From: Onchidella celtica
Taxonomy: Eukaryota > Mollusca > Gastropoda > Systellommatophora > Onchidiidae
Direction: 5' to 3'
Assembly: GCA_963931925.1 (NCBI GenBank)
Contig: OZ007570.1
Span: 57,428,321-57,492,320, forward strand
Length of the DNA stretch: 64,000 nucleotides
A program made the translations under genes and the position numbers. Positions 17,619 to 63,495 of this stretch are shown in pieces. A model generated the notes under the pieces. The model was not told where the DNA came from and did no database searches. It saw only the letters and a list, made by a program, of their open reading frames with translations. Numbering within the stretch: the first letter of the stretch is position 1; each line of letters begins with the position of its first letter.

Positions 17619-19577
17619 AACTGATTTTAAACCCTATGGCCGCCAGGAGAGATTGGCCGCTCCTTCCGATTTTTTTGTTTTTGTTTTGTTTTATTTTAAC
17701 TGCAAGTGGTAACCGTATAAATTTGGCATCTGGTACATGTTCTCTCTGGGGCTCGCACTGACCTGGAAATCTCCAGAAAGATTACGTTTCCACACAGCCG
17801 TTTTCACTGGTTCTTGGAATACAGCATTTTAAAAAAATGGTTTAACTGACTAAAAGTAGTATTAGGGTTAAAACAGTCGTATATAATTATGTGAAAACAT
17901 AAATACGCTGTAAATACTTGTAACCTATTTTTTCGGGGTGGGAGTGGAGAGGCAGTATTCCAGAGTGTTAAAATTGGACATCAGGTGACGTAGGCCTACT
18001 TCACATATGGAACATTGGACACTTGAGGGTTGAGTTGTCTATCTGACTACACGGAACACAAATCTCACTTCACAAATTCACTATACTGTAATTTCATAAG
18101 TAAAGATCCAAAAATCACCCGTTATTATTTCTTTCAGTGGCTGACATGCCAAAACAATCGTGTATTTCTACCTCAAACATAATGTACAAAACAGACATCC
18201 TAGCCGGTATGTTATACTGCTGTCAAATTTTGATGTTCCTCTTACCACTTCATAAGATTTCCTTACGGAACTTTCCCATTTCTGAAAATCCATTATGTAC
18301 AATTCCACTGTGTATTTACACTTCACAAATGCGATGAAGAATTTCACATATCCCCACAGCAAACAGTTCTATCGACACCGAAATGGCACACTATGGATGA
18401 AAATTCGCCAAGATGTGCCCCCTGGAGAAACGATCGATCGATCACACGTGAAATATTCTTGCTGAAGGAGCCAATCAACAATAATCCACTGTGAGGAAAC
18501 GCCAGCTCGATAAAGCAATAAAAGACCTGCCTATCAGTCATTGAGTGAAATCCCTGCAAAGGTGTCCAATAAAAGTATTTTAGGGATTTCTCTTATTGTG
18601 TGCAATTCTCTAACTTGCGGCCACTCGCTTCGCTAGTCAACGCAAAATGAACAGAATTCCAGCAAAGTTGCCAGTAAACACAGTCGACGGCGGCTTTTTA
18701 TTCTCCAAGTGACAGCCCTGATAAGCCCATGAGCCGCCTATGGGTCCCCGATGTTGGTTCAAAGAATTAAAACTCCAAAGAGTTTCGCTCTGGACTAGTC
18801 CACTTAGCATTCACAGGACGCGACGAAAGGTAAGTCCAACAAATAATTCACCGTCCAACATAACTTTGTAGTAATTTTATCGCCTCTTTTCTTTTGGGCA
18901 CCATAGACGGGCGAGAACAACTATTCTGACGCTAAGGACTCTAAATGGCATCAGGTGAACTTAATTTTAACTGTTAGTAGCGCCAAGACATTAGATTGCC
19001 TTGTTCACAGGGGACCAAAATTGATTTCACCTTCGCCGTAAGTCACTAAAAGCTATGCATGGTGTATGCCGTGGTGTCTGATCAACATTACACTCCCGAA
19101 CAACAATTTATCAGGATAGCTCTTGAAAAGTATGGTGTCTGTCAGGTCTATTTTCTACGAGTAGGATACAACAATAAAATTTTCTTTAGGAGTGTGGTGT
19201 ATCTCAGAGCCCAGGACGTACAACTAAGGGTAAGTCAATAAAATCCTCTTTAGAAAGAATGACAATAAAACCTCTTTAAAAGTATGGTGTCTGTGAGTCA
19301 CCAGGACGTCCAAGCAGGAAAAGTAAAAATGCATGTGCGTTGGTGAGCACCCTCCTGCATACTTTAAAAACTTAAAACTATGGGGAAAATAGTTGATGAC
19401 GTCATTGAGGAATACCTAGAATTTCAAGAAAAGAAGTCCCAGAAATAAGATAATAACGAATGTATTCAATTGCTTCTGGGTCCATTAGACCCACGACGTA
19501 CGGTGAAGGTTAAAATTGTTAGAGGATAGCCAAAATGTTCACATTCATCGAGGAAAATTATCTATTGATAACTTAGA

Positions 19578-19745: not shown

Positions 19746-20860
19746 CAGACAATGGGTCACGCATTAAACACCGGACACCTGATGAAGTGTTCCAAATATG
19801 AACTAGCCGACTTGGCAATGGGGGGGGGGGGGGGGTGGGGGGGGGGTGTAAAGATCGAATAGTGTAAATAATAAAAACCTCGACAATATTTTAATCTTGT
19901 TTTACAGCAATGCACGAGTCCTGTCGTGGATGAGTTTGAGTGGGTTAATACAACTTTTAACATCAGAACAAAAACTAAAACTGCGGCGTTTTTAATGAAA
20001 GATATTTTGTTGGTGTGAAATATATGGATATGAATGGTGGAATGAACTAAATATGTAGGCCTAATGTACATATGAAAAACAAGAACAAAAACTGCGAATG
20101 TTTCATTCAGGTAGTAAAAATTCTCCTAAATAAAAGATCCTTATTTGAACATTATTTCAAGCAATGAGAAAACAAGAGACCAAAGTGAAGCAAGAATTTA
20201 CAAGAGACCAATGGCGCTTTCTTTTCTTTTGTTATTTCCGACTTTCTCTATTGATTGTTGGGGACCTAGACAGTACAGTGCGGAAAAGGGGCTCAAATCT
20301 TATCGCTCGTCGTGCTGAGAGACTATTGACATTTCACTGTATAGAAAATGCTGACAAGTTTAATACGACATGTAAGCCTAACTTAGCTCCTCGCCAGCTA
20401 TTGTTCGCGGCTCAACATGAACAGCCGTAAATCACCGCTGTCTTTATTGAACGGATTGATTAAGGGGTTATGCCCCCTTGCTGAGACATATCTTACAGCT
20501 TCCATCACTCTCAAGAGTTCGATAGGGAACGCCAGATATATCCACTGTGTGTAAAGAGTTTGTCGAAGAAAATACAAGAATTAAGCAGTAGGACGGGCCT
20601 TGATCACCTGTAATTCAATAGGTGTGACATCACACCTCAAAACAACCGCATTTGCGGAAGCCAAGTGTCTATTTTCTGACATGCGAAAAGGAAAGACAAT
20701 TCTATTTTGTAATGAACACATTAAAAACACACACACACACACCTACATACACACCACGCACACACACACACCACTGTAGGCTCGCATTATTTCAGTAACA
20801 ATACAAATAAACTGAAACGTATTGTAATATAATGTAAAAATATAATATAAGATGATATGA

Positions 20861-21020
20861 TATAATATAATATAATATAATATAATATAATATAATATAA
20901 TATAATATAATATAATATAATATAATATAATATAATATAATATAATATAATATAATATAATATAATATAATATAATATAATATAATATAATATAATATAA
21001 TATAATATAATATAATATAA
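20861..21020 (+). repeat. Pentanucleotide microsatellite (TATAA)32
   Basis: 160 bases of uninterrupted TATAA repeat, flanked by imperfect copies on the left from about 20826. The open frames that cross it are artefacts of the repeat. Confidence 0.97.
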
Positions 21021-32471: not shown

Positions 32472-35400
32472 ATGACTTCCATGATATATATCAAGCGGCT
32501 TGGAGGGACTGTGAAAATTCATGACAAAGACGTGGTTAGCAATGTTGTTACTGACAGCGAGAAAGAGAAGACTCAGCTGGAGTTGAAGGTAACAACAATA
32601 TCTTTTCATATTTCACGTGAACGTTCAAAATGTTTGTGTGATTGAGGGATTTTGTATTGTTGCAGATCGTTGTTTTCTTTTCACAGCAGATAAAGTGCCA
32701 TGGCATTTTAGGTTTTCTTGAATTATTTTACTTAATAGTTAAAATAACAGGCTACCAAATGCCCTATTCATTTACCTTGGAAGGACATAACCAGAGAAGA
32801 TATTATGTCTATGATATGTAATTACTAACATTTACTAAAACCCAGTGGTCATTTGATTCAAATTATAGGTGCTATTCTTATGTTGAAAGTCCAAATAGGC
32901 TATGTATCATATAGATGATAATCATTCTTACATTGTATTGTTAATTCTTCTCTGTTTTGTTTTGTTTTAAATATTTTTAACATATCTGTGAATGTTTACT
33001 GGTGTAGTTGCAGAAATCACGTAGACGTCCAAAGAAAAATGATGCAAGAGTTTCTTCAGCCCCTGATACTGCCTCTACTGCTAGCGTTGACTCTAAGAGT
33101 CTAATTAATCAAACTGTGAGAGTACAGGACTGGCTGAATGAAAAGGCAATAAAGGACTTACAGGTAAATCTATTTGAAAAGTAAAATTGAGATACAAATA
33201 TAGGTATTTGGCATAAAGATTATAGCTACAAAATTGATATTTCATCACTTTCCGTGAGACCTGGCAATAAAAAATTGTTAATGTATTAATTTAATGAGTT
33301 GAGGGGGGGGGGGTGAATAAAGTTCATTTTAGCCAAAAATGAAATCAGATTTGTGTCTTTATAACTAAGGGAAGGTATGCTGCAGATTGAACGTTGGTGT
33401 TATTTTACTGGTCTGCACACACTCCTTTTTGTTCACAGGACAGAGCAAATAAAGAGTGTCAAGCTACCAAAAGACTGTATTCCCCTCTCCTGGAAACAGA
33501 GAACACTTTTGTAAAGGTATGTTATAATTATTTTCATTTAATTACAGGGAAGACATACGATCAAGTTATGTAGAGTTTCCTAGTGCTTGAACTGTTGCAT
33601 TTCTATAACGTGTGTGTAACCATATAATGCACAATAAAGATATAAATAATTTCTTGAAGCAGAATTATTGAAATGAGGACTTCTAGGATAGGAATGCAGC
33701 CATTTTCACCAGTAATTTTGTTTTCAGGAACTTGGAGACTTCTTGGCACATAAAGAGCTTATTGATCTCCGCAAGAAAGAAGTTTTGCACAAGAGGTGGT
33801 CTGATCAAGTGTATGAGCCAATGAGGAAAAAGATCTTGGAGGCTGTTGATGGGTCAGATTGGCAGCACCTTGATCGACGTAAACGTGAGATGCATCGACA
33901 ATTCCTTGAACATGTGAACAGGAGGGTATGTATGATAAATGTACCTCTTCCAGTGTCTGAGTCATTAAATTTATGATTAAAAAAAAACATTGTACAAGGA
34001 GTAGCATATAGATCTCATTCAAACACAGCGAGATACATATAATTTTAATCAATTTAATTGTGGCACACTCTGCATTGATTATGAGATCTCTAAACTCATG
34101 CACATACTGATGTCTGAATAATGTTCTGTGTTATCCATCTTCAAGGTTTATGTGTTATTTGATGGCAATCTTTGAACAGTCTGGCCAACCTAACTATTAA
34201 TAATTAATCATGAACAGGGATTTGTGTTCTTGGAAGATGATGACACAGAGGAATACTATGCTCAGGCGCTGAATGGACATAGACCGGCACCAATAAAGGT
34301 AATCATGAAAAGCCAATGGTTCAATTGACAATGTTGGTGTAATAGATAAATTGTCGGTTGTGTTAGTGAGTAAAGATTTGTATTCACAAAATACAAAATT
34401 TTGTTTAGAGCAGTAGATTTATTGGGAAGATTTTATTGATCTTGAAATGTACAGGGTTTTCATCTTTATACCGCATTTGAATGTGTTCTCATAATTTTAG
34501 TTGTCGATCACCCATGTATGATTATGATTTTAAGAAAAGAAAGTAACTTCAAGTATTTAATTGCTATACTTAACACTCAAGTCTCTTAGAAAATTCAGGA
34601 CAATCAGAAACAGGGTCATCAAGCTGGTCAACATTGATAAGTGTTCAAATTGTAATTCTCATAGATGGTTATCTCATGTTCAATGTTAGCCAACATATAT
34701 AAGTCAGGAAAACACAAGTTGTAGGGAGGCAGCATTGCCTACTACATGTTATTTTGTTTAGGAATCACTAATATGACAGTAAAGAAAGCTAATGTACTAT
34801 TTCTTAATATCTCAGTGAATGCCAGTATTAAATAAAAGACAGTATTCATTAAACTATGTTAATGTTCAGAAATTAATTTATTTAGGCGATTTTTTACTCT
34901 TTCTAGCTTGAACAAAGATGTGTGCACTCTACCTCCTCCTCAAGGGCTGAAATATTCAGGATTGAAAATTTCATTTCATTTCAGGTTAAAACAGATGCCC
35001 TCAGTGATCCACTCCTCACGCAGAGTAGACAAAAATCTGAGGAAGATCGCACCATCATACATTGTGTGGCTGGCCATCGTTACTCTGACAATGATCTGGA
35101 ACAGGTGGCTTTCATACAATAGCATCTTTGGATTGCATAATCATTATATTTTTACTTGATTTTTACATACTGATCTGTAGCATTCTTATGCTCAGTTGGT
35201 TAGTGGGTTATCATTTTGCACCGCAACAGACACTGATTTATTTTTAAAAATTAATTCTTTGTTAGTTCTCCATTTAATGAGTGCTAGAAATAATGTGACT
35301 GCCATTCAAGAAAATAAGAGAAGTGTTGAAAATAGCTGATTTTGTTCAGAATGTGTATAAGAAGTGAATACATATCACACATCCATTCAGAGGAACAGAG

Positions 35401-38400
35401 CTGCAGATTATAACTTGAAAGGGAGAAAAAAAAAGCCTCTCTAAGAATGTACAGAATTTTTTGGTTTCCTATAAATGTTGTTGACTTTTAGTCTCCATTT
35501 TATTAATATCGTTACCAGGTGAGACTCCCACCACTTCCCCTGGTTCCTTTGGGTCGTCATGGGATCAACAGCTGCCGTTGGCTAGAGATGCCACTTAACA
35601 ATATAGAGAGCACACCAAGAGAAAGGAGCAGGTAAGAATTTTTTTATTTTATGCACTTTTAATGTGTGCAATGGATAATTTGTTGTCCTCTTCCTCTCTC
35701 CTTAGTGTGAGGTTGGTGTTTTAAGAAATCAGGTTTAGTGAATCTCCCATGATATTCAGCCTCGCTGCTTGTGGCCCTGCGAAATTATTGCAACAGTGAA
35801 ATAAGGACATGCATAGATAAAGAACACAGTAATTTTGGTTTGATATAGGGAAATAGATTATATGTTATGCTTGTTATGTGCCTGTGTGGAAAAAGGAGAT
35901 TAATGTTAGGAACTACCTTGTCAATATTGAATTTGACTGATGGTTTTAACAGTCATCCCTGGTGTATGGAGTTTTTAGAACTGTTGACAATTTCACAACC
36001 TCAGGGTGCTGTCTAATCTTTATGTTTTATCAAATTTATGTATGACAAACAGGATGTTAGTCTCCATTTTCATGTTTTAAATAGTTCAAGAGCCATACTT
36101 TTTTTGTTTTGGTTTTATTAGGTAAAGTCTGTCATTTAAAGAAGAGATATATCACTACGTCTTTCATCACATTGTCATACAATTTCTTATTATGAAATTA
36201 ATAGATTAAAATTTATCCATATCACCCCCCCCCCCCCCCCGCCCCCCACCAGCAACAACAAAATCATATATATATTGTTATTAATAAATATTCAAATATT
36301 ATTTGAGTTGTGTGTTGTGTGAACTGATGTGAGTTGTGAACTGCTGTGAGTTGTGAACTATTGCTAGTTGTGAACTGCGCCTAACAGGCTGCGTTACAAT
36401 TTGCTCTGAGATAGAGAGAGAGAATGAGCGAGACAGGGAGAGAGAAAGAAGCAGTGCAGTGTGTTGAGCGCTTCGCAGGCAGCTCCATTCTGCTCTGTGG
36501 TTGACATGTTGTTTCTGTAAAGCGCATAGAGCATTTTAAATGGATATGCGCTATATAAATGCTATACATTATTATTATTATTATTATTATTATTGACATG
36601 CTTTGTATCCAAAATATTTTTTTAAGACGAAAATGTTCTGCTAAGAATGAGGTAAAGCAAACCATTCACTCAGGTATCCTTATCACTCCAAATGTAACAT
36701 AAAACATGAGTATTTCTCTTCTTTTTCATACAGTGAAACCAAAATATTGTTCTTGTTCATTACATTCACTGGAGTGGTTACACTGTAGAAATAAGAGTGA
36801 TATTCAAGTTTTGTATGAACTCAGTGACACAGTTGAAACTACCTTTGGCATCTGTCCATAGTTTCTGTTTCCTTTATGTTGGAAGGTTATGGATTTGAGG
36901 GTGACTTTTTGTGATGAGAAGTTTAGCATCTGAGTGAAAAGATGGATGCCTAAACAATGAAATTTGAAGATCACTATTTGATATACGCTACAAACGTGAA
37001 AATGAAGACAAGGAAATATTTTTTTTTAATTTGAATACAGACTTTTGTAGAAAAGACTGCAGAAGCACAGCCTGCAAGGAACTAAATATGCCAGTTGAGT
37101 AACCCCACTTGATCTCGGCATATTAATATAAAAACTGTAACAACTAATCAGCATGCTTTCATTTCATCATAATGTAATTATTCTAGTTGTAGGACAATAT
37201 TGCTTGGAAAAAGCAAGTAGGGCTTCTCATCACAAATATGATTCTGAAAATTTGGTTAATTTTAGTTATCTACTACAATTGGTGTTGACCGAGGATATGG
37301 GCAAATGTCTGCAAATCGTTCCATTTGTTTGATCCTTAGTAATGGTAGGTTTAGGAGGTTGAAGGTTTTTCTCGTTTGGTTAGCTGTGATTTCTCTTTGG
37401 TGAGGAGATGAAATATTCTTATTGGATACTTTCATCATTCCCCCTTTCTTAGTACCCAACCTTTACAATGGCTGTCAGCTTCACCTGTTAAGAAATCCAG
37501 TCTATGACTTTTCAGATAACTTATCTGTGAGTGTCATTTGTAGGATTCTTATTGTGTTTTGCAAACTTACACTGCATTTCCCTGTCTTAAATAAGTAAAA
37601 GAAAGGACCTGTACAGAGCTCGCTTGAAACCACCTCGAGTGATGAAATTAAAGGTAAATGTGCAATGTAAGCACTTTCTTTGTCATATTTATATATTGTA
37701 GATGGCAGTCACATATAATGCATGAGTGTTTAGTAAGATCAGCTTTGAAGTAATTTGATTTTTTTATTTCGAGTTGCCTGAAATGTTCTGTATAAAGTTA
37801 CGCCTGAAATGGCAATGATCTTCATTTGACAAACATGCAAACCTATTAAATATATTTGATCAGTGAAAAAAAAGAGGGAACTTTCAGTACATGAGCTGAA
37901 GCTGCACTTCTATATTGTATACTTTAAATTTTAATTCAGAGGAAATTGTATCAGTGATAACACTTTGAATGAATAACATCACTCTGAAGGAACTGTCTGT
38001 CACAAGAGGGCACTGGTAGAACAGAACATGGCCTTCAGAGGCTTACAATGTCCCTCTTGTTTAAAACTGCTGTAATGAATAACAGAATCTAGTTGTAAAT
38101 GTATCTTTTGTGTTTTATTATTTTTGTTTGTTTCATCGTTTGTTTCTCATTCAGATCAAACATTGGAATTTTATATTTTGGTCCTTTTTGATTTCACTCA
38201 AAATAATTTAGTGAATTATAATTGATGGTTAATGTGAACAAGTGGAAAAATCATTGCCAAATAGATGGGCACTTATCTGTCCCTGTTTCTTGCCAAGGAT
38301 CCTTTAGCTGGGCAGTGCAAACTGGTGAAGTTCTTTTAAAGTAACCAACAGAACAAGAAGGCTGAAGGCTCATTTAAAGTAACTGACAGAGATTGTTGAT

Positions 38401-41400
38401 ACTAAAGGCTGTGGAAGCTGAAGTCTAACTATAACATGGAATCTCAAAACCAAAACACAGATTTTACCACCACAGTTTATGTTCGAAAACATCAATTGTA
38501 AAGTGATTGACTGGTGTAAAAGTGGTCAGTGTAAGGACTTCTGAATGCGTCTCATGCAAGATTGCACTTCTTAATGTACTCAGCAGTTAATTGCCAAGCC
38601 ATGCCTCAGCTAAACAAAACATCCCCTTAGACTTAAAGGACTACAGCAGGGGAGCCCAGTGATCCCCCTACACAGCCACTCCTAAAGTTGCATCTTTGTG
38701 GGGTCCTTGTACTCCAGCAGTTTGGGATATTTCATTACTGTAAGAAAATGTGGCCATGAGATGCATTTGGAAGTCCTCTATGGTCAGCAGCATGTTCTGG
38801 TACCTTATGACTATATCACAGTGAAAACTGGATTTGTAAGCCATTGAGGCGACACTCCATTGCATATAAGTTATTGTGAAATCAGTTCATGAATACACTC
38901 AAAGGGGTTAGTTGGGGTGAGGCACAGAATACCGAGACAAACCATTCCTTTTCCCATTATATTTCCGCAAATTGCACCCATGTAAATACGATGAGTTCTA
39001 CTCTTTCTCGGTCAATTATGAAGAGGTGTGGTTTGAATTGTTGCATGATACGCAAGCAAGTCAACGGATAGAATATGACGAATTGACTCGTCTCAATATC
39101 CTGTGTCTCAGGTTGGGGTCAACCAAAGAATATAAAACAAGTTACTGTACCAGCAGCTAGGTCTATTTATTATTATGTTGTTTTGCTTTTGTTTTTGTTT
39201 TGTCCAGATTTTTTTTTTTTTTTAATGTGTATACAAAGTGACCAATAGATCAGCGAATAATGAATCATGTCTGCCATCTGCTATAGAGGAATACGATCTT
39301 AGGTTTTCCATTTAAACTGTGGTAAGAATCGATGGATGTTAAATCTCAGTTGTCAGTCAGTTTAAAGACCACATAACATAGACAAGTAAAAACTAAATGA
39401 AATCACAAACGTTAACACATGTACAATTGGTTTAAGCACATTATCTTTTTGCTGTCTTTCTTTACAGGCATTAAGTCTGTCTGTTCTCACTTTTATTCTT
39501 CCTGGACTGCACATACATCTGTGCTCACTCTGTCATGCACACTTTCTGTTACTGCCACTTCACATCACATTATCATTTGCACCACTCTTCTGTAATCATT
39601 GTGTAATATGATCATTACAGAATTTAAGTTATAAATGCATAAATACTGAGTCACTAATTTGCACGTTCAATAAGTCAGATTATCCATATATTTGGTTGAA
39701 GTAAAATTATCTTGGCTACAAAATGTGCCTCAACTTTAGCCAGCTATATCTGCAGGAAATGTGTATTTGTACTGAACCATCCATTTATTTCACTGTCCCT
39801 GAATGCAGATTTAAAATTTAATTTGACGGTTTTAAACAAAAATGAGAGTCTAGAACTTGTGTGTGTGTATGTCTGTGTTTAGCGCTAATTTCATTTTACC
39901 AATTAATTGAGGTGTTTGGAGAGAAAAAGCATAATAGATGATGATGTGCATATGAGAGTGACAGAAGATCGTGGCTGCAATATTTTGTCCACCATCATCA
40001 TCACTGTTCCCCAAAACTGTAGTAATCTGTTTTGGCTATTTTTCAGGACAGGTAAAAAACAGTTTTATTTTAGTACAACTGGTGTAGCAATGATGAGTTT
40101 TTGAAAGTTTGGTATTTGATTATTTTTTATCTCAGGAGTCTATAACCAAGATCATTCAATGTGGCCTTGAATGTAGTTGAATACATGAAAATTGATTTTT
40201 CAAATTTTTGAATTACTGAAATCTTAGGAAATGGTGACAATATTTGCTACGTTTACCTGCGGAAAGAGTGGTGATTAAAGGTGGAAATTTTCATTACATC
40301 CCCAAGTTATTCTCCCATCTTAATTTCTAAACATACTCTGGACCACTGATTTCCTGTGTTATTTCAAAAGTCAGAGTGGTGGTGAAACACTATGTCTGAA
40401 ATCATATTCGTTACCTTGACTTTCTGTCACAGTCTCATTTGCTATACAGTTTAGTTTTTGGGGTGTGATCCATGGGAATAGAAACTAGTTTCTATATTTT
40501 GTTTATAAGCTGCGAGTAAGTGTGATGTATTATTTTAGTTGTTATCAAACATTATGAATATATCTGAAAACTTATTATTGTGTCATTACATTCTTCTATT
40601 GAATACTGAAGTGTAGAAGAGTGTAGTTTTGATTGGTACAGTGTGAGATAATATCACTGCCATTGTCCTATCAGTGTGACTATCAATGATGGTTTGATGT
40701 TGTGAAGTGTTTCAGAGATGGCATGGCTATTAGGTTAATGAAGATGTGTACGAGTTACTAAGCTTATAGAGGGAGATTTTTATAAAAGTGAAATTTTCAT
40801 TTTGAATGGATAGTTATTTGGATTACAGGATTAAATGGATACAAATGTTTCAGCTCTGATTTGCTGACATTTAAAACAATTTCAGTATTTTCAGGATGAA
40901 TAATAGAATTACAATCAAATTTAGAGTCTGACACATGAGAGGAAAAAATAAGTAAATTTCAATATTAAAAGGGCAATTTTTTATTCAAAAAGTTACAAAT
41001 TTTACTGTCTCAAAATTTAAATAGTTTTAAGATGTGTCCATTATACATGCATATTCCATGATTTGGCACATTAAATTTTTTTATTGGTAGGTGAATCTGG
41101 CAAGACAGGAGTCCCCTAGTTTTTTGATGCTCTCAAATCAAGACCTTCATGTGCATGGGGTTTTGCAATCCCATTGCTGTCATCGGATTGTCAGTCATTA
41201 AAAATGTTTTGTTTCATTTTTATTTTTGTGCAATTTTTGTTCTTAATGACTTTGTGATAAAATAATGATGAACCAACTACTTTTCACTTTATGAGGCAAC
41301 CATGGCAGTGGATCTCTTTTTTTTTTTTTAAATTTCAATAGCCCAACAATACAATGTGGCAATTTTACGCAGCAGTTAGACCATTTCAAGCAATAATGGG

Positions 41401-42556
41401 ATAAATAATTCATGCTTACTGACAGAATGGTTTAAATACTTTCAGGCATCGAATGTGGGGATGCAGCACAAAAACAGACATTGATTTCGGAGCATGGTCC
41501 CAAGCAAGCTACGACCCAAAGGTAGAAAACATTGTATGCTGGCATGACTGTAAATTTGTGTACTTTTAAAGAGAGTGGTAAAACTACCTTTATGTTAAAG
41601 AGAAAGTTGGTACACCGCTTGTATATATTGTGTGTGTGCTTTGTTTTTAACAGTAAGTGTAATTTTTAATAGCATTTCTTCGTACATGTTAGAATCATAC
41701 TTAAACTTACCATACAATTTTGAATAGTATTGTAATGAAATCGGGGGGGGGGGGGGGGGGGGGGGGGAGGGGTCTGTCATTTTAAATATCTCTAAGGTTA
41801 CCAGTGAGCAAATCACCTTGGTACAAAGTCCCTTGCAAAAAATAACGCATTTATTGGTTGTTTTTTTCAGTATGACCAGTAGACATTTAAGTAAACAGTC
41901 CATCAGTTATTGTTTTTACTGACTTCGCCTGAAATGCTAAACATCTATCATCATGTGACTGAAAATGTATTCTTATATTTGGTTAGTTTTGAAAGAGTCA
42001 GTCATAGCATTCAGCGGTGTCATTGAAGTGGGTAATTCATTCCATGTTTGACACAGACCGTGAGAAATTAAAATTTCATGTAGGCAGACTTAAAGTTTAC
42101 ATCCAACAGAGAAGCCAATATGAAAAGGTTTAGCATGTAGATGACTGTAAATAGTGACAGTAGAGATAGAAATCAGTACTGGACTGATAATGTCTCAAAA
42201 GTGAAATCAAGGGAGATGGAACACGTATTATATATTCTGGGATGATGATTTGTCTATTAAAAGCTTGTCATTCCTATTATGTTCAGGTCATTGAGAAGGA
42301 GCTCCAGATTCCCCGTAGGAAAGTCTTTGCAGAGCAGCCACCCTTCGGCCGACCCCCTGCCAAAATTCCCCAGATACCATTCATTGACCCGGAGGACTTC
42401 GCAGACAAGATCATCAACACAGACCCATTTACCCAACACATGGCAAACCTAAAGGCAGAAGCCGAAACTGTGAAAGCTTTCTACGAGTATCAGCAAGAAC
42501 AGCAGAAGCTGTTGGATGAACAGCAACAACTACAGCCTGTTCTGGTCCAGGCTTAG
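32472..42556 (+). CDS. FAM228: FAM228-family protein, at least ten coding exons
   Basis: Exons found: 32461-32588 (first in-frame ATG at 32472), 33014-33163, 33439-33516, 33728-33925, 34218-34298, 34985-35104, 35519-35631, 37596-37653, 41446-41521 and 42287-42556 (TAG). All have GT-AG borders and phases agree through exon 8. Exons 3-7 match the FAM228 core: KELGDFLAHKELIDLRKKEV, HKRWSDQVYEPMRKKILEAV, FLEHVNRRGFVFLEDDD, IIHCVAGHRYSDNDLEQ, then NSCRWLEMPLNNIEST. Exon 8 gives a basic RKDLYRARLKPPRVMKLK. Exons 9-10 add a tail ending in a Gln-rich helix-like stretch (EYQQEQQKLLDEQQQ). Exon 8 ends in phase 0 but exon 9 needs two carried bases, so an exon between 37654 and 41445 is missing from this model. 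Exon 8 could start 6 bases later. FAM228A/B have no known molecular function. The neighbour PFN4 is divergent. Confidence 0.88.
36225..36248 (+). repeat. C-tract in FAM228 intron 7
   Basis: A 16-base C-run followed by G and more C. Together with the minisatellite and the retroposon tail downstream, it shows that this intron accumulates repeats. Confidence 0.9.
36304..36380 (+). repeat. 17-bp minisatellite, about four copies
   Basis: Tandem units of GTGAGTTGTGAACTGCT with small changes. It lies in FAM228 intron 7, directly before a retroposon. Confidence 0.75.
36381..36594 (+). mobile_element. SINE-like retroposon ending in GCGCTATATAAATG and (ATT)n
   Basis: The 3' part reads GTAAAGCGCATAGAGCATTT, then ATGCGCTATATAAATGCTAT, then (ATT)n to about 36594. 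This conserved tail is shared by many SINEs and CR1-type LINEs in marine animals and serves as the recognition site for a partner LINE. The body upstream is a purine-rich stretch without recognisable A and B boxes, so the 5' limit is a guess. It lies in FAM228 intron 7. Confidence 0.55.
38923..39109 (+). other. Unassigned exon-like open stretch in FAM228 intron 8
   Basis: One frame is open over about 60 codons with convincing residue composition, reading YRDKPFLFPLYFRKLHPCKY and then NYEEVWFELLHDTQ and IEYDELTRLNILCLR. A GT after CTCAG at 39109 would leave exactly the phase (two bases) that FAM228 exon 9 requires. The left side lacks a good acceptor: AG after GCAC at 38922 gives the wrong phase and has no pyrimidine tract. 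It may be part of the missing exon, or a piece of an unrelated inserted gene. I do not recognise the protein. Confidence 0.35.
41743..41772 (+). repeat. Poly-G tract
   Basis: 25 consecutive G, one A, then four G, downstream of FAM228 exon 9. It is the longest of several G-tracts in the window. It could form a quadruplex on the RNA, as the tract lies in the sense strand of the intron. Confidence 0.95.
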
Positions 42557-52850: not shown

Positions 52851-52855
52851 GAAAC
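52851..52855 (+). repeat. Target-site duplication, left copy (GAAAC)
   Basis: GAAAC directly precedes the 5' LTR and is repeated at 61247-61251 directly after the 3' LTR. Five bases is a usual Ty3/gypsy duplication length. It proves that the two LTRs belong to one insertion event. Confidence 0.95.
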
Positions 52856-54035
52856 TGTCACGAGTGGAGTGAGCGATAGTTAATAATTACGGGGGGAGAG
52901 GAGAGTAAAATTAACGCACGGAGACAAGTGAGAAAGTCGTGCATGTCATGAGTGGGGGGTCTGAAGGAGGCGAAAGCGCTGGATTACTATCACTGCAAGT
53001 TAGAAGGTCCTAGGGAGCGGATCTGTGAATAATAGCCCATCGGGCAGAGATAAAGGGAAGCAGTCGAGAAGACTAGTGAGAGTCTTTCCAGTTATGACTG
53101 GTACGTAGAATGTTGATTGATTATTATGATTGATGTATTATATTATATTCGTCTATTACCATGATGTGAATAAGTATATGTGAGGAATGTGGAAGTCCGT
53201 GATATTGGATATAGCAATGTGCGCCATGAGCGATAGATGAAAGTGAGTTCATGGATTTGTAGCGCGAGTGAGTAGTGTGTACTCCGATGGAGGTGTGTTA
53301 CCGTAAGATGTGTGGTGAGTGAAAGGTGAACTAGGGTGTGTACGCTTCATGGATTGTAAGGAGAGGTGGAGTGAATAGAAATGGTAGGGTATTATACCAA
53401 TGTAATGTTATTCTTGTAGGTGTCGGGGACGGGCCGCAGAGCCACCTCGATGAGCACAGGGGATAGGCCAGCATAGGGCCGGAGGCCACACATAGGCCAG
53501 AAGTGAGGCTGTCAGTGCAGGACAGTAGAGGCACATAAAGTCGTGGCAGTCAGGCCACGGGCAGGGACGTAGATATGAGAGTGAATGAGATACTATGTTG
53601 TTGCCATGTTGATAGGCTAGTGAACTGATATTATGTTGTTGCCATGGTGATGGCTATGGAAATAATAACGTGTTATTGCCCTGCTGAGGTGCTAGGGGAG
53701 TGCTAAGGTGTATGACAATAGGAAGGTGATATTGAGAGACTGCGGTGCCAGTGAATCATTAATGTACTATTAAGACCCTGAGGGGAGAGGCTGAGGCCGA
53801 AGTGCCTTTAGGAGTAACTACCGGATTGTGGATCCGAGGGAGCGTGTGTGTGAGAATAAGGCCATTGTACGGCAGTCATTTCAATAATATAATATATGTA
53901 ATTGCGCTATTATATGTATAATTATGTTTAATAAATGTGTGAGTCTGATGGATTGTTCTGTTAAGTGTTAACTTGTTTGTTCGTGATTGTTGTCCTGTCA
54001 TAACTATTACATTTCCCAGTCTGGGATTTGTGACA
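52856..54035 (+). repeat. 5' LTR of the Gmr1-like retrotransposon
   Basis: 1180 bases starting TGTCAC and ending GTGACA (6-base inverted ends). Read base by base against the 3' LTR, I find one difference: G at 53055 against A at 60266. An AATAAA at 53930-53935 is the likely polyadenylation signal, placing the R/U5 border soon after. AT-rich TATA-like sequence lies just before it (53883-53923). Two GTTGCCATG motifs in a local duplication (53600-53613 and 53638-53651) resemble RFX X-box sites. Open frames crossing the LTR are not genes. Confidence 0.97.
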
Positions 54036-54087
54036 TTGGGGGCTCGTCCGTTGTGACATTGGGGGCTCGTCCATTGTGACTCGTCCA
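54028..54087 (+). promoter_or_regulatory. Primer-binding site, tandemly duplicated with the LTR end
   Basis: TGGGGGCTCGTCCG at 54037-54050, one base after the LTR, matches the 3' end complement of tRNA-Pro, the primer type known from gammaretroviruses. A 23-base unit joining the last 8 LTR bases to the site (54028-54050) is repeated at 54051-54073, so a second PBS of 13 bases lies at 54060-54072. A third partial copy (54074-54087) lacks the G-run. Only the first copy is correctly placed next to the LTR. Confidence 0.85.
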
Positions 54088-54985
54088 TTTTCGTAATATT
54101 TAGTTGTAGTTAGTTAGTAGGTAATTGTGCTGTCTTGTTCGTTGGATGAATGGACATTTCATGATATGATTTATGTATAATAATGAATGTATATTGATGC
54201 ATGTATTGCTATGAATAGGTATTAATTTGTATTTAAACTTTCCAGAGTGTGTGCGTGCAGCCTGAGGAGACGAGCGGCCAGAGCTCCGATTAAAGGGAGG
54301 AGTTAAACTCAAAATTCAAAGTTAAGTGAAGCTGAAATTTTGTGCCCTGGATTGTGGGCTGTCCCTTTGATCTGTCTTTTTCCCTGTTTTTGCTGTTTTT
54401 GTTGTCGTTATAGGTTATACGGGCGGTGGCGCGGGTTTGCTGTGTTGAACTTAGTTTATCCTTTTAAAAAGGTGTGGTAAACTTTGGAACTTCGTTCATC
54501 ACAGTGAACAGTTCTGTAGGGACCTGTATTTTTGTTTAGATTGTAGCGTTCTATCTTCCTCGTTGTTTTAGGAAGACGTTTCTCTTGTCCCTCTTCTACC
54601 TTTCTGTAGATACGTTCTTTTTTTTCAGACTCTGTTCTTGTTCGTACCTTGTAGTGTAATCGGCGTAGTAGGTTGCATTTTTTTTTCCATTATAGTTTTT
54701 TTTTGTAGAAGCTTTGTCCTAGTCTGGTTCGTTGTCCTTGACGTACTTGTGGTCCTTCTACTATATTTCTTCATTCTTGTGGTTTCTATTTTCTTTTATA
54801 ATTAATAGCGCTATACATTTTATAGATATAGAATTAGTTGTGCTGTAAAGGTAAATTTCTGAATTGTATTCTGAACCGGGTATTGTTATATCTGGTGTGA
54901 TCTCAGGTCTCTGGTCGTGTCGTTAGTGATCATACCGACAGGTTGGTCGTTCGCATAATAGATACCATAACCATAAATCTGTGAA
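54088..54985 (+). other. Untranslated leader of the retrotransposon
   Basis: About 0.9 kb between the primer-binding repeats and the gag start, with a T-rich second half. It has several upstream ATGs but no long frame. Packaging or dimerisation signals would be expected here, but none can be recognised by eye. Confidence 0.7.
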
Positions 54986-57900
54986 ATGGCGGAACTCCAA
55001 CAACTAATGAAGTTGGGTAAGGAACTTGGCCTGGAGGGAGAGGAGCTACGCGGCTGGATTAAAGAACAGCAGGCGGATTTGCGCGATGAGCGTGCTAAGG
55101 ATAGAGAGCGTCAACAAGAAAAAGAGGCTCAAGAGCGACAGAGAGAAGAGGAAAGGGAGTTTAAGCAACAGGAAAGAGAGGCTAAGGTTAAGCAACAGGA
55201 GTTAGAGGCTCAGCAACAGGAAAGGGAGTTTAAGTTAAAGGAGTTGCATCAGCAACAGGAGAAACAGGCTCAGGAGAGGGAGTTAAGGTTAAAGGAGATA
55301 GAGGCGCAAGTAAAGATTGCGGAGTTAGAACTCAAGAAGAATACGCCAGCGGAAACGGCTGAGCGGCAGGTACACAATAAAGGTGGCGTTAGGATTAAGC
55401 TCCCTACGTTCGACGACCGGAAGGACGACATAGACGCCTTCCTTTACAGGTTCGAACTGAACGCACAATTGCAATGGGGGGAAAATAAGGAATTATGGGC
55501 CACGTACCTGGCGTCGCTATTGCAGGGGCGAGCGTTAACCTACTTTAAAGAGCTACAGCGCGAAGACGTGCAAGATTACGATAAGCTGAAGGCTTTGCTG
55601 CTTCGCCGATTTGCGCGTACCGAGGAATATTTCCGGGAGCAGTTTAGGCGAGCACGTGCAGATACCAGGGAGGACTTTGCTGCCTTCGTCGCGAGACTGA
55701 CGGAGTATTTCGCGAACTGGGTAGACTTGGCGCATGTGGGCACGGATTTTGCTAAACTGAAAGACTTAATGATCCGTGACCAGCTGTACGCGTCGTGCCA
55801 CAAAGATCTGGTGGCTTTCCTGAAAGAGAACGGACCCGCGACGGTGCAGGAGGCGTCTAAGTTGGCGGAGGCATACCGTACGGCGCATCCGTCCAAACCA
55901 GTCGCCAGGGCGTACGTCCAAGATGCTGGGTACGTCGCCGTTGTCGAGGGGTCGCCGGCAGGACTTAGGGACAGGTCGCGTCAGCGTGGTGCCTATAGTG
56001 GGCAAGGCCAGGGGCAGCATAGGGGCTATCACCAATCACCGGCATATGGATCCGGTAAGTTTGACCGAGCAGGAGGGCTAGGTCGCGGTAATGGCCGGGG
56101 GCGAGTTGTGACCTTTGCCGATGACCGACGGCATAGGGACTCTAGTTCCGGTCGCGATGGGTCACGGGGACCCAGGCCTAGAGCAGCACAGGGAGCGGAG
56201 TGTTGGACTTGCGGACGCGTGGGTCACTTTTCGCGCGAGTGTAGGGCCGCGAAGTGTTGGAACTGCGGAAGAGCAGATCACATCAGCGTGAACTGCCCGG
56301 CAGGTAGGATAGCGGCGAACGTGGACAGTAGCTCCAGTCCATGCTCCCCAAATAAATTTCATCATGCGGCTGCGTGTGTTACATCGGACAACGGAGGCGG
56401 ACAGTATTCTAAGTGTCCCAGTTGTGAGAAGTTATTATCTTCCGGTGTTTTACCTTGTGGGAGAAAGATCCCCGTTATAAATTCATGTCATACAGGAGGT
56501 GGTCTTAGGGTTTATCCGGGGTTTGTTGGGGACGAACCGGTCTCGGTTTTACGAGATACAGGATCTACCGTTGTGGGAGTGCATAGGGACTGCATTCGGG
56601 ATTCACAGCTTACAGGTGAGACTGTCCCGTGCATCCAATTTTCGGGGGCCATTGAGAAATTACCCATGGCAAAAATAATGATAGATACACCTTTCCTTAG
56701 CGGGGAAGTCGAAGCAGTCGTTGGTTGTTTTCCAGGCGCCCAGCTCATCATTGGGAATGTATCACGGGTAGTTTCCCCTTCCGATGAGAACGTGCAAGCA
56801 TGGTCGCAATCAAAAGGTATTGACTTTTGCGCCGCGGTCGAAACACGCCGACGGTTAGCCGATAAAGACAAGATTAGACCTTTGGCTACGCCAGCGGTCA
56901 ACCTAGACATCACGCCGGAGCGCTTGGCGAGATTACAAAGGGAGGACCCATCATTAAACCCATGTTTTGGGGAAGCGCGAACCGAGAAAACGAGGAGATA
57001 TAAGAACGGGTCGTCCTCCTTTATTGTTCAGGCGGGCATTCTGTTCCGTAAATATGTAACGGTGTCCTCCATTTTAAAGCAGGTCGTGGTGCCAGCGTTG
57101 CTGATCGCAACAGTGTTGCATTTGGCACATGATGTCCCATTAGCGGGTCATATGGGGATAGCTAGAACCAAAGAAAGGGTTCTTAAAAATTTTTACTGGC
57201 CATCGATCCACAGAGATGTGCAGGTCTATTGTAAGATGTGCAGTGCGTGCCAAAAGACGACGCATAAGGGTCGTACACCCCAGGCCCCTCTTCAGAAGAT
57301 CCCCACGGTCTCGGGACCGTTTAAAAAGGTCTCGATAGACCTTGTTGGCCCCATTCACCCAGCGACCGATAGGGGGAATCGATTTTTCTTAACGGTCATA
57401 TGTAATGCTACGAGATGGCCAGAGGCGGTTCCTCTGCGGACCATAACGTCTGAGGCAGTCGCGGAAGCGTTGTTTGCAATTTTCGCTAGGGTAGGAATAC
57501 CAGAGCAAATTCTGTCTGATAGGGGCGCGCAATTTACGTCGCAGATGATGAAGGAATTGTTCCGCTTATTCAGTATACAACCCATCACTACCACCCCTTA
57601 TCATCCGCAGGCTAATGGCATGTGCGAGAGATTGAACTCGACGTTAAAGTCGATGCTGCGTAAGGTAGCTGCTGATCGCCCTAAAGATTGGGATAGATAT
57701 ATCCCTGCAGTGTTATTCGCGTACAGAGAGGTACGGCAGGAGTCAACGGGATTCTCGCCGTTCGAAATGATGTACGGTCGTAGTCCCAGGGGCCCAACTG
57801 ATGTTCTTCGGGACATGATGACGTCGCCATCATCGGGAGACGATGATCAGATTTCGGTGTTTCAGTACCTTGTTGATTTAAGAGAAAGACTATCTTCAGC

Positions 57901-59710
57901 GCGCACTATAGCAGAAGAAGCGTCTAATATCGCTTCGAAAAGAGCAAAAGACTATAAAGATAGAGGGTCCAAACTGAGAATTTTTAAGCCAGGAGACAAG
58001 GTTCTGCTGTTGTTACCTACGGACCATAATAAGTTATTGATGACATGGAAAGGCCCTTATGTTATTGAGCGAGTTGTTTCAAAGGTAGATTACGCTATCC
58101 ACATTGATGGAGCGAGTAAGGTTTTCCATGTTAATATGCTACAGAGATTTTATGAGAGACCACAGTATCTGTGTGCACAGACAAGACCAGAGGAGACTGT
58201 CTTCTCTACTGCTTGTACGGGGGTCGTAGACCAGTTGGACTGTGACGTAAGCGACACCGAGGCGCAGGAAGAGTTACAAATTCAATTGCCGGAGTTAACT
58301 GCGACACAAGGTTACAGGGACGTAAAAATTAACCCTGACCTTACGAGTTCAAGGAGTAGGGAACTTGAGACCCTGTTAGCGTCATTTCCGGATGTTGTTA
58401 CGGATTTGCCGGGTCGCACTACGGTGATCCAGCACCAAATAAAGTTGACTTCCGATAAGCCAGTATTTCTTAGACCGTATCCGTTGCCTTTTTCTTCGAG
58501 AGATAGAGTCATAAAGGAAGTTGAGTCAATGTTGAAGTTGGATGTGATAGAACCATCAACATCGCCGTATTCATCACCCATCGTCCTCGTGAAAAAACTT
58601 GATGGATCGGTGCGGTTCTGTATTGATTTTCGAAGATTGAACACTATTACGGTAGGCGATAGGGAGCCTATTCCGTTTCAGGAGGAATTAATAGCTTCAT
58701 TGGCCGGGTCCACGTGGTTTTCCAAGATAGATTTGACGAAAGGGTATTGGGAAATCCCGCTCACTGAGGAGTCTAAACAATACACGGCGTTCCAAACGCC
58801 CATTGGATTATTCCAGTTTAAGGTCATGCCATTTGGGTTGGTGAACGCGCCAGCGACGTTTGCACGATTAATGAGATTGGTGTTGAAGGACATACCTAAT
58901 GTCGTGTCATTCTTTGACGATATAGCATGCCATACGTCGACATGGTCTGATCATATTCAGACACTAACAGTAATTTTTCAACGATTACGTCATTTTGGGT
59001 TAACTGCTAAACCCGCAAAGATGGATTTGGCATGTCCAGAGATAGTATTCTTAGGACATATTGTGGGTAGAGGTGTTCAGAGACCTGAAGAAACAAAAAT
59101 TGACAAGTTAGTAGGGTTGCAAATCCCTAAAACAAAGAAACAAGTCAGAAGCTTAGTGGGAATTTTAAATTATTACAGAAAGTTCATTCCAAATTTTTCC
59201 TCCTTGTCATCTTCTCTTACTGACCTTACTAAGAAGGGACAACCCGATAAGGTCCAGTGGACGTCTGAATGTCAGACATCATTTGATAATTTGGTGACAG
59301 CATTATCATCGTCACCCATTCTGATATTACCCGATTTTCGATCTAATTTTATCCTCAGAACGGATGCGTCGGACTCTGGTGTCGGCGCTTGTCTTCTACA
59401 GGAGAAGAACGAATGTCTCCATCCTGTATGTTATGTCAGTAGGAAGCTATTGCAGAGAGAAAGAAAGTATTCTGTGATAGAGCGTGAGTGTCTTGCCATT
59501 GTCTGGTCCGTCCAGAAACTAGGACGTTATCTCATGGGACGAGAATTTTGTATCCAGACAGACCACAAGCCACTGACATTTTTGTCGAAGAATCGTTCGT
59601 CCAGCCCACGCTTGTCTAGATGGGCATTGGCTTTACAGCCGTACACCTTCGTTATTCAGCCAATTCCAGGAACCAGCAATCATATCGCCGACTACCTTAG
59701 TCGAGCCTAG
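54986..59710 (+). CDS. Gag-pol polyprotein, domain order gag-PR-IN-RT-RNH
   Basis: 1574 codons in one frame without stop or shift. The ATG (AAATGG context) begins a Gln/Glu-rich coiled coil (about residues 30-120). A gag core follows (135-300), then a Gly/Arg-rich stretch and two CCHC knuckles (C406-C419 and C424-C437). The protease has DTGS at 524-527. The integrase has an HHCC finger (H715, H722, C752, C755), a catalytic triad D785, D845, E881 with 35 residues between the last two, and a GPY/F module (WKGPY near 1021-1025). RT follows, with D1249 and FFDD at 1309-1312, a variant of the usual YxDD box. RNase H has D1460, E1501, D1526 and D1569. All catalytic residues are present. Gag and Pol share one frame, so the Gag:Pol ratio must be set by processing or another device. 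No chromodomain is visible after GPY/F. Confidence 0.97.
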   Translation: MAELQQLMKLGKELGLEGEELRGWIKEQQADLRDERAKDRERQQEKEAQERQREEEREFKQQEREAKVKQQELEAQQQEREFKLKELHQQQEKQAQERELRLKEIEAQVKIAELELKKNTPAETAERQVHNKGGVRIKLPTFDDRKDDIDAFLYRFELNAQLQWGENKELWATYLASLLQGRALTYFKELQREDVQDYDKLKALLLRRFARTEEYFREQFRRARADTREDFAAFVARLTEYFANWVDLAHVGTDFAKLKDLMIRDQLYASCHKDLVAFLKENGPATVQEASKLAEAYRTAHPSKPVARAYVQDAGYVAVVEGSPAGLRDRSRQRGAYSGQGQGQHRGYHQSPAYGSGKFDRAGGLGRGNGRGRVVTFADDRRHRDSSSGRDGSRGPRPRAAQGAECWTCGRVGHFSRECRAAKCWNCGRADHISVNCPAGRIAANVDSSSSPCSPNKFHHAAACVTSDNGGGQYSKCPSCEKLLSSGVLPCGRKIPVINSCHTGGGLRVYPGFVGDEPVSVLRDTGSTVVGVHRDCIRDSQLTGETVPCIQFSGAIEKLPMAKIMIDTPFLSGEVEAVVGCFPGAQLIIGNVSRVVSPSDENVQAWSQSKGIDFCAAVETRRRLADKDKIRPLATPAVNLDITPERLARLQREDPSLNPCFGEARTEKTRRYKNGSSSFIVQAGILFRKYVTVSSILKQVVVPALLIATVLHLAHDVPLAGHMGIARTKERVLKNFYWPSIHRDVQVYCKMCSACQKTTHKGRTPQAPLQKIPTVSGPFKKVSIDLVGPIHPATDRGNRFFLTVICNATRWPEAVPLRTITSEAVAEALFAIFARVGIPEQILSDRGAQFTSQMMKELFRLFSIQPITTTPYHPQANGMCERLNSTLKSMLRKVAADRPKDWDRYIPAVLFAYREVRQESTGFSPFEMMYGRSPRGPTDVLRDMMTSPSSGDDDQISVFQYLVDLRERLSSARTIAEEASNIASKRAKDYKDRGSKLRIFKPGDKVLLLLPTDHNKLLMTWKGPYVIERVVSKVDYAIHIDGASKVFHVNMLQRFYERPQYLCAQTRPEETVFSTACTGVVDQLDCDVSDTEAQEELQIQLPELTATQGYRDVKINPDLTSSRSRELETLLASFPDVVTDLPGRTTVIQHQIKLTSDKPVFLRPYPLPFSSRDRVIKEVESMLKLDVIEPSTSPYSSPIVLVKKLDGSVRFCIDFRRLNTITVGDREPIPFQEELIASLAGSTWFSKIDLTKGYWEIPLTEESKQYTAFQTPIGLFQFKVMPFGLVNAPATFARLMRLVLKDIPNVVSFFDDIACHTSTWSDHIQTLTVIFQRLRHFGLTAKPAKMDLACPEIVFLGHIVGRGVQRPEETKIDKLVGLQIPKTKKQVRSLVGILNYYRKFIPNFSSLSSSLTDLTKKGQPDKVQWTSECQTSFDNLVTALSSSPILILPDFRSNFILRTDASDSGVGACLLQEKNECLHPVCYVSRKLLQRERKYSVIERECLAIVWSVQKLGRYLMGREFCIQTDHKPLTFLSKNRSSSPRLSRWALALQPYTFVIQPIPGTSNHIADYLSRA

Positions 59711-60066
59711 GGCAAGATTTCAGGAGCTTATACATCGGAGGACAGGAACATTGACAGGATCTGTGTGAATGAGTCGACTTTAAAATATTGACATTATAAA
59801 ATATATGATATGAAGAATGGTTGATAGGTTGAATGGTTTTTGATTCTGTATTAGATATTGTGTTTAGTTAGCTATTGATGATGTGATACATATATGCATA
59901 ATGCATGGCATATTGATCCCCATATTTTCCCCTGATCCCAGTATTTTATGTGCTGGGGGCATTGGTAGATCATTTTTAATGTAGGTATTGCTCAGGCTCA
60001 CTCGTTGACAGTCATCTTGATGCGATTTGAAATTAATTGCATTAATTTTTTTGGGGTGGGGGATGA
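59711..60066 (+). other. 3' untranslated internal region with polypurine tract
   Basis: No frame of note, so there is no third gene. GGGGTGGGGGA at 60053-60063 is the likely polypurine tract priming plus-strand synthesis. It ends three bases (TGA) before the 3' LTR. A T-run precedes it, as often seen before such tracts. Confidence 0.8.
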
Positions 60067-61246
60067 TGTCACGAGTGGAGTGAGCGATAGTTAATAATTA
60101 CGGGGGGAGAGGAGAGTAAAATTAACGCACGGAGACAAGTGAGAAAGTCGTGCATGTCATGAGTGGGGGGTCTGAAGGAGGCGAAAGCGCTGGATTACTA
60201 TCACTGCAAGTTAGAAGGTCCTAGGGAGCGGATCTGTGAATAATAGCCCATCGGGCAGAGATAAAAGGAAGCAGTCGAGAAGACTAGTGAGAGTCTTTCC
60301 AGTTATGACTGGTACGTAGAATGTTGATTGATTATTATGATTGATGTATTATATTATATTCGTCTATTACCATGATGTGAATAAGTATATGTGAGGAATG
60401 TGGAAGTCCGTGATATTGGATATAGCAATGTGCGCCATGAGCGATAGATGAAAGTGAGTTCATGGATTTGTAGCGCGAGTGAGTAGTGTGTACTCCGATG
60501 GAGGTGTGTTACCGTAAGATGTGTGGTGAGTGAAAGGTGAACTAGGGTGTGTACGCTTCATGGATTGTAAGGAGAGGTGGAGTGAATAGAAATGGTAGGG
60601 TATTATACCAATGTAATGTTATTCTTGTAGGTGTCGGGGACGGGCCGCAGAGCCACCTCGATGAGCACAGGGGATAGGCCAGCATAGGGCCGGAGGCCAC
60701 ACATAGGCCAGAAGTGAGGCTGTCAGTGCAGGACAGTAGAGGCACATAAAGTCGTGGCAGTCAGGCCACGGGCAGGGACGTAGATATGAGAGTGAATGAG
60801 ATACTATGTTGTTGCCATGTTGATAGGCTAGTGAACTGATATTATGTTGTTGCCATGGTGATGGCTATGGAAATAATAACGTGTTATTGCCCTGCTGAGG
60901 TGCTAGGGGAGTGCTAAGGTGTATGACAATAGGAAGGTGATATTGAGAGACTGCGGTGCCAGTGAATCATTAATGTACTATTAAGACCCTGAGGGGAGAG
61001 GCTGAGGCCGAAGTGCCTTTAGGAGTAACTACCGGATTGTGGATCCGAGGGAGCGTGTGTGTGAGAATAAGGCCATTGTACGGCAGTCATTTCAATAATA
61101 TAATATATGTAATTGCGCTATTATATGTATAATTATGTTTAATAAATGTGTGAGTCTGATGGATTGTTCTGTTAAGTGTTAACTTGTTTGTTCGTGATTG
61201 TTGTCCTGTCATAACTATTACATTTCCCAGTCTGGGATTTGTGACA
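60067..61246 (+). repeat. 3' LTR of the Gmr1-like retrotransposon
   Basis: 1180 bases, with a constant offset of 7211 from the 5' LTR and a single substitution at 60266. The polyadenylation signal AATAAA lies at 61141-61146. The right flank GAAAC (61247-61251) completes the target duplication. Confidence 0.97.
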
Positions 61247-61304
61247 GAAACTATCTCTGCATGTAACAACATAGATTCTCCTACATTAAGAAATGTTCAA
61301 TGTT

Positions 61305-61576: not shown

Positions 61577-63495
<1,919 letters not shown>

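Follow-up and report, generated by a model that had tools for sequence, protein, structure and literature searches.

How a pol order with the integrase ahead of the reverse transcriptase (RT) is processed in a retrotransposon with gypsy-like domains, and how a single Gag-Pol frame can supply an excess of Gag, are the questions raised by this locus of Onchidella celtica. The window, by which we mean the whole 64,000-nucleotide stretch of DNA that was analysed, holds only one listed open reading frame (ORF) of at least 250 aa, at 54986-59710. The LTR retrotransposon around this ORF is complete and measures 8391 nt (52856-61246); its LTRs, target duplication, primer site and remaining parts go beyond the preliminary description of the locus (Table 1). 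We conclude that the element is almost certainly an intact, very recently inserted Ty3/gypsy LTR retrotransposon of the Gmr1 group in a heterobranch gastropod. It had been called intact and possibly active before; intactness holds and the near-identity of its LTRs makes the insertion very young, while activity is suggested by that age.

Table 1. Features of the element and their positions in the window
Feature	Position	Strand	Basis or remark
Target site duplication GAAAC, 5' copy	52851..52855	.	Identical 5 nt at both element ends
5' LTR, 1180 nt, TGTCAC...GTGACA	52856..54035	+	1 mismatch against 3' LTR
Untranslated leader, 950 nt	54036..54985	+	10 ATGs upstream of the ORF
Primer binding site (PBS) TGGGGGCTCGTCCG, complementary to tRNA-Pro 3' end	54037..54050	+	One nt after 5' LTR
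Second PBS-like copy, 23-nt tandem repeat (GTGACA + PBS)	54060..54073	+	Repeat at 54036-54080
Single Gag-PR-IN-RT-RNase H ORF, 1574 aa	54986..59710	+	ORF list, Pfam, alignment
SCAN-like capsid part of Gag, aa 214-301	55625..55888	+	Pfam PF02023, 29.3 bits, cut-off 27
Two CCHC zinc knuckles, aa 406-419, 424-437	56201..56296	+	Motif; Pfam zf-CCHC 406-420
Aspartic protease (PR), DTG at aa 524	56498..56785, outer limits approximate	+	Motif; D524, G526 invariant in alignment
Integrase (IN) HHCC zinc domain, aa 702-759	57089..57262	+	Pfam PF17921 (Integrase_H2C2), 65.6 bits
Integrase catalytic core, D785 D845 E881	57314..57628	+	Pfam PF00665 (rve 777-874), 46.1 bits; invariant residues
528-nt in-frame stretch retained here, missing in a large class of copies	57339..57866, limits uncertain by 9-nt repeat	+	Copy comparison
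GPY/F motif WKGPY, aa 1021-1025	58046..58060	+	Read in sequence, alignment
695-nt stretch missing in another large class, present here	58183..58877	+	Covers aa 1066-1298, the RT core including D1249 but not FFDD
Reverse transcriptase, aa 1202-1360	58589..59065	+	Pfam PF00078 (RVT_1), 103.6 bits
RNase H, aa 1450-1553	59333..59644	+	Pfam PF17917, 124.4 bits
Polypurine tract GGGGTGGGGG, 4 nt before 3' LTR	60053..60062	+	Sequence; function inferred
3' LTR, 1180 nt	60067..61246	+	Sequence
Target site duplication GAAAC, 3' copy	61247..61251	.	Identical 5 nt at both element ends

The order of Pfam matches confirms that the integrase precedes RT and RNase H in one unbroken frame of 1574 codons, as the preliminary description had it, and the residues named there (D785, D845, E881, the HHCC finger, GPY/F and FFDD at 1309) are found in their places. 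Read directly, the integrase carries H715/H722/C752/C755 followed by the three catalytic residues, with 35 residues between D845 and E881; the RT carries D1249 and FFDD at 1309-1312, and the RNase H carries D1460, E1499/E1501, D1526 and D1569. In an alignment of 22 sequences, namely the window protein and 21 chosen from the 120 relatives listed, D785, D845, E881, D1311, D1312 and the HHCC residues are invariant. Both RT (268 bits) and integrase (105.5 bits) find their best PDB match in Ty3, in line with the earlier proposal of gypsy-type domains in a copia-like order, and a PDB search with Gag gave no sequence match at E 1. The eight Pfam families matched at E 0.001 include no chromodomain, and the element is not placed among the chromoviruses, which carry one after the integrase. 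The longest plus-strand open stretch between the ORF and the 3' LTR is 38 codons; there is no env ORF after pol of the kind that an envelope-bearing gypsy or a retrovirus has. Nineteen stretches in viral contigs searched for relatives fit a pattern, and none was confirmed. By analogy with known LTR-retrotransposon biology, the LTR would drive a genomic RNA that would be translated as one polyprotein and cut by its own protease, tRNA-Pro would prime reverse transcription, and the integrase would insert the DNA with a 5-bp duplication.

The placement of the element rests on its relatives. A second search with a short conserved RT stretch, aimed at other gypsies, provided integrase-last relatives, after which 133 of 151 proteins were integrase-first, 16 were integrase-last and 2 missed one domain. 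The trees comprise 65 rows, namely 47 integrase-first and 16 integrase-last of these proteins, the window and Ty3. In RT-RNase H, the 48 integrase-first rows including the window part from the 17 integrase-last rows including Ty3 by a single order change with support 100/100, and the AU test rejects a topology that groups the window with the integrase-last rows (p 0.0016). The integrase tree gives the same split at 96/97 with long branches meeting there, and the corresponding AU constraint is not rejected (p 0.31). Of the phylogenies proposed in the preliminary description, that of RT-RNase H sets the element apart from integrase-last gypsies, and that of the integrase is compatible with either placement. 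By domain order, by the RT tree, whose rows include neither the named Gmr1 (cod) nor Cigr-1 (Ciona), and by the SCAN-like Gag, the earlier assignment to a Gmr1-like group appears right. The integrase-first order is almost certainly inherited from the group's ancestor and does not result from local rearrangement.

That an ordinary integrase-last gypsy had its parts rearranged, either locally or by the assembly, would agree with the integrase tree taken alone. However, the same order and frame recur in 10 of 20 other genomic copies, which also disposes of the assembly error considered in the preliminary description, and integrase precedes RT in all 120 relatives listed from the 716 matches of a homology search, a listing that favours full-length matches. 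Together with the RT-RNase H clade and its AU test, these observations refute the rearrangement as it stands, and we give it virtually no chance. A Ty1/copia element, for which the integrase-first order alone speaks, is just as negligible and is already refuted by domain identity, since Ty3 is the best PDB match of both RT and integrase by wide margins (the 635-aa integrase chain 7z0h_W, which we take to be the Ty1 integrase, reaches 32.6 bits), 0 of the 60 shown among 205 RT PDB matches are named as copia-type, and the GPY/F motif, a PF17917/PF17919 RNase H and a SCAN-like Gag are present.

Goodwin and Poulter reportedly described Gmr1 in 2002, from deuterostomes according to their title, and a 2001 report by Butler and colleagues is cited for the group as well. 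Three later papers (PMC2774666, PMC6238403, PMC8220671) use the name Gmr1 for an integrase-first gypsy group and refer to Goodwin and Poulter 2002 for it. The pol order has been known since 2002, and what is new here is the state of the family. The restriction of such elements to deuterostomes in the preliminary description is too narrow: Gmr1-like elements were found in 2013 in crustaceans, where they were termed the first in protostomes (PMC3587641), they are reported from an annelid (PMC8220671), and the clade is said to occur in several phyla (PMC8556966), to which the present mollusc is added. Named hosts among our listed matches include sea star, sea urchins, feather star, sea cucumber, scallops, oysters, limpet, periwinkle and brachiopod. 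A SCAN match is expected of a Gmr1-like Gag, according to PMC4592553. The present element shares with the Gmr1 group the gypsy-type RT, RNase H and integrase, the integrase upstream of RT, the SCAN-like Gag and the single Gag-Pol frame of the sampled relatives, but differs in its heterobranch gastropod host and its very high recent copy number. The family also has abundant integrase-core and RT-core deletion classes, possibly a further difference from the group. Its Gag matches Pfam SCAN above the cut-off, like the SCAN domain of vertebrate zinc-finger proteins, reportedly the subject of Emerson and Thomas in 2011; here, however, the domain is the capsid of a mobile element and not part of a domesticated gene. 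Ty3 of yeast offers the closest solved RT and integrase but has its integrase last (polyprotein RT 584-1009, IN 1088-1448).

We searched the genome (1.14 Gb, 43 contigs) for further copies. A probe of 801 bp, taken from the integrase tail and RT, spanning aa 1005-1272 and lying mostly inside the stretch missing from RT-deleted copies, gave 1272 first-look candidates; all 40 scored places, which are the best matches and not a random sample, agree with it at 99% or better. With up to 3 mismatches, 2352 places match a 33-nt pattern from the left edge of the integrase core, and none match its reversed control. Twenty further copies were fetched whole, picked by probe similarity, which favours young copies and shuts out those without the RT core. 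In ten the frame is full-length (1536-1588 aa) and reaches the same C-terminus, another carries a 1-nt insertion and nine lack the integrase core. A full LTR pair is present in 17 copies and is without mismatch in 11 of them, L016 having one gap column and L009 and L010 sharing an LTR; the remaining six pairs have 1 mismatch (two copies), 2 (two copies), 3 with two gap columns (one copy) and 5 (one copy). Exact 5-bp target duplications flank 11 of the 20 whole copies, six of them core-deleted, and L024 also has an exact one, ATAAT, when one more primer-site unit is counted into its LTR. From these data, the family appears to be a recently bursting one of high copy number, with more than two thousand copies, and its age points to activity. 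At C3:18234931-18251187, L010 and L009 stand in an array of two units whose outer sides both carry AATAA. Head-to-tail copies at steps of ~7.1-7.3 kb occur there and at C1:1664065, 2371787, 5635833, 27969603 and 39708966, including two three-unit runs; they resemble LTR-sharing arrays, and sharing itself was observed for the C3 pair alone.

The deletion classes are the more interesting part of this family. The 528-nt deletion lies at the 9-nt repeat ACCTTGTTG and removes D845 and E881, leaving the D785 codon, while a 530-nt deletion at the 5-nt repeat GTTTC shifts the frame and removes all three catalytic residues. The 528 junction is found at 1184 places (up to 3 mismatches) and the 695 junction at 1294 (up to 2 mismatches), with controls at 0. 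Integrase-core deletions are present at 11 of the 40 probe places, that is in 9 of 20 whole copies, in 2 of 19 pieces of 900 nt and not in the window. Counting exact junctions only, an intact core edge occurs 97 times on C1 up to 75 Mb, in 6 cases together with the RT deletion. The 528 type is represented there by 40 copies, 20 with the 695 deletion and 20 without a listed one, and there are 40 RT deletions, 14 of which were matched to neither core state. The deletions occur singly and jointly in the copies read (L052, L056, L051). L056, the single copy read in which the core edge is present and the RT core absent, has a broken Gag frame. In L017, a copy of the 530 type, one further nucleotide is lost nearby, which brings Gag and RT back into one frame, and its RNase H has a stop. 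Canonical splicing does not account for the two integrase-core gaps, for which no placement runs GT...AG and whose junctions lie at the 5- and 9-nt repeats. The junction letters favour separate origins for the 528 and 530 deletions; the copy tree mixes the classes and recombination blurs the picture.

Some deleted copies have moved recently, presumably in trans, because their LTRs are identical and they have target duplications: LTR pairs are free of mismatches and gaps in L013, L021, L026 and L028, and the duplications are exact in L013, L017, L021, L022, L026 and L027. Copies that lack one or both of the integrase and RT cores presumably use the enzymes of intact copies. Tos17 is described as a non-autonomous LTR element without gag that is moved in trans (PMC3977881). 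In both cases incomplete elements amplify via enzymes or proteins from others, but here it is the integrase core or the RT core that is missing, and Gag and protease are kept.

The classes have also exchanged segments, because their divergence is mosaic, the copy tree mixes deletion classes and the deletions occur singly and jointly. Comparing intact copies with the 530 type gives a dS of 0.187 for the protease plus the integrase zinc domain, as against 0.026 for Gag and 0.023 for codons 964-1574. Divergence reaches 18.4% in codons 701-750 and is 0.2-3.3% in windows outside 651-800. A third version of the protease-zinc block is present in L009, an intact copy. The exchange would most likely proceed via template switching during reverse transcription of co-packaged RNAs. 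We consider it probable that the deletion classes are plain non-autonomous hitch-hikers, made by template switching at short repeats and kept circulating by recombination. The repeats at the 528 and 530 junctions, the clean LTR pairs and exact target duplications of deleted copies, the single and joint occurrence of the deletions and the mosaic divergence all agree with this explanation. It does not by itself explain the open Gag-PR frame in most sampled deleted copies, although their youth may.

This open frame bears on the supply of Gag. There is no stop or shift between Gag and Pol. The same single frame, SCAN-PR-IN-RT-RNase H, is found in 119 of the 120 listed relatives, the remaining one lacking RNase H only. 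The arrangement is therefore usual among the relatives sampled, and the preliminary description went too far in regarding this copy as specially useful for the question of the Gag:Pol ratio. Post-translational adjustment is described for Tf1 of fission yeast, and a Tf1-like adjustment would be the default view here by analogy. Alternatively, the deletion classes may act as Gag suppliers in a two-part system, in which integrase- or RT-deleted copies keep Gag-PR, stop early and give extra Gag. We regard this alternative as unlikely, and the evidence on it is divided. Among eight copies of the 528 type, chosen by position from the listed exact matches on the plus strand of C1 and C2, six have an open Gag-PR frame. 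Five of the eight are also missing the RT core, and in 4 of these 5 the product ends at 856-899 aa; the products of the 530 type measure 791 aa in 5 of 6 copies and 761 aa in the sixth, L017 not being counted. In addition, omega is 0.17-0.33 in the blocks beside the deletions, and private changes in 18 deletion copies (the most divergent, L048, is left out) number 29 silent and 34 replacing in Gag-PR, which is fewer replacements than neutral (p 0.0007).

However, the same 18 copies have 51 silent and 43 replacing changes in codons 964-1574 (p 4e-9), so that the deficit is as strong or stronger downstream. Eight 530-type copies have no deficit in Gag-PR (codons 115-654; 2 silent, 5 replacing) and a strong one in the out-of-frame codons 964-1574 (8 silent, 0 replacing, p 2e-5); their zinc block has 6 silent and 9 replacing private changes. 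In five doubly deleted copies, Gag-PR (10 silent, 13 replacing, p 0.06) is no different from the RT remainder and RNase H, which are left untranslated (9 silent, 12 replacing, p 0.07), and omega is 0.30 in Gag versus 0.33 in that untranslated part. Import from intact copies explains constraint in both Gag-PR and untranslated parts. The intact copies themselves have 14 silent and 14 replacing changes in Gag-PR, which leaves the private-change test little power. Gag is not singled out by the selection tests, made in four ways; judged from these substitutions, Gag-PR of deleted copies seems somewhat constrained, no more than their untranslated sequence. We therefore hold the hitch-hiker explanation to be the better one. 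It is correspondingly doubtful that the family works as a modular consortium, in which intact copies would give integrase and RT, more than a thousand integrase-core and RT-core deleted copies, many of them with an open Gag-protease frame that stops early, would give the excess Gag, and template switching between co-packaged RNAs would reshuffle the modules. If true, the question of sufficient Gag from a single Gag-Pol frame would have an answer at the level of the element population. The family makes two matters testable with ordinary data, namely the source of Gag excess from a one-frame Gag-Pol, and the dependence of defective copies on intact ones together with their reshaping of them.

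The primer site records steps of reverse transcription through its varying repeat number and through a tRNA sequence in L021. TGGGGGCTCGTCCG is identical to the first 14 nt of the primer site of 18 nt that PMC4635179 lists for tRNA-Pro in MLV and other retroviruses. L009 and L010 have four units of GTGACA plus primer site; the window, L014, L019 and L024 have two, and the 14 further copies in which a 5' LTR end is present have one. No count was obtained for L022. For the window insertion it was probably the first primer site that was used, given that its two LTRs stop at the same GTGACA. The LTRs of L024 both seem to reach one primer-site unit further out and so to include one extra unit, and there the second site was probably used. 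In L021, ~36 nt that read as tRNA-Pro stand immediately behind the LTR, and the match continues into TGGGGGCTCGTCCGGGATTTGAACCCGGGACCTCTC; beyond 18 nt they are presumably the complement of the 3' part of tRNA-Pro, and the stretch reads as a trace of copying into the primer.

Elsewhere in the window, exons of a FAM228B-like host gene lie at 33716-42556 on the plus strand, four of which have their best matches, among named ones, in Aplysia californica (58%) and Elysia chlorotica (60%), which places the host among the heterobranch gastropods. On the minus strand, 61577-61849 resembles the terminal exon of a host gene whose product ends in NDPFGAL, with no Pfam match; the element lies ~330 bp downstream of the stop of this gene, in opposite orientation. 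A 235-aa open stretch at 16926-17633 on the minus strand resembles by eye the C-terminal region of a LINE-type RT protein and has no Pfam match above the cut-off. Long microsatellites occupy 62141-62448 (TC, then AC, then AG units) and 20839-21020 (an AATAT-type pentamer array), and a tandem pair of a ~146-nt segment at 13813-14108 is possibly the terminal part of a DNA transposon.
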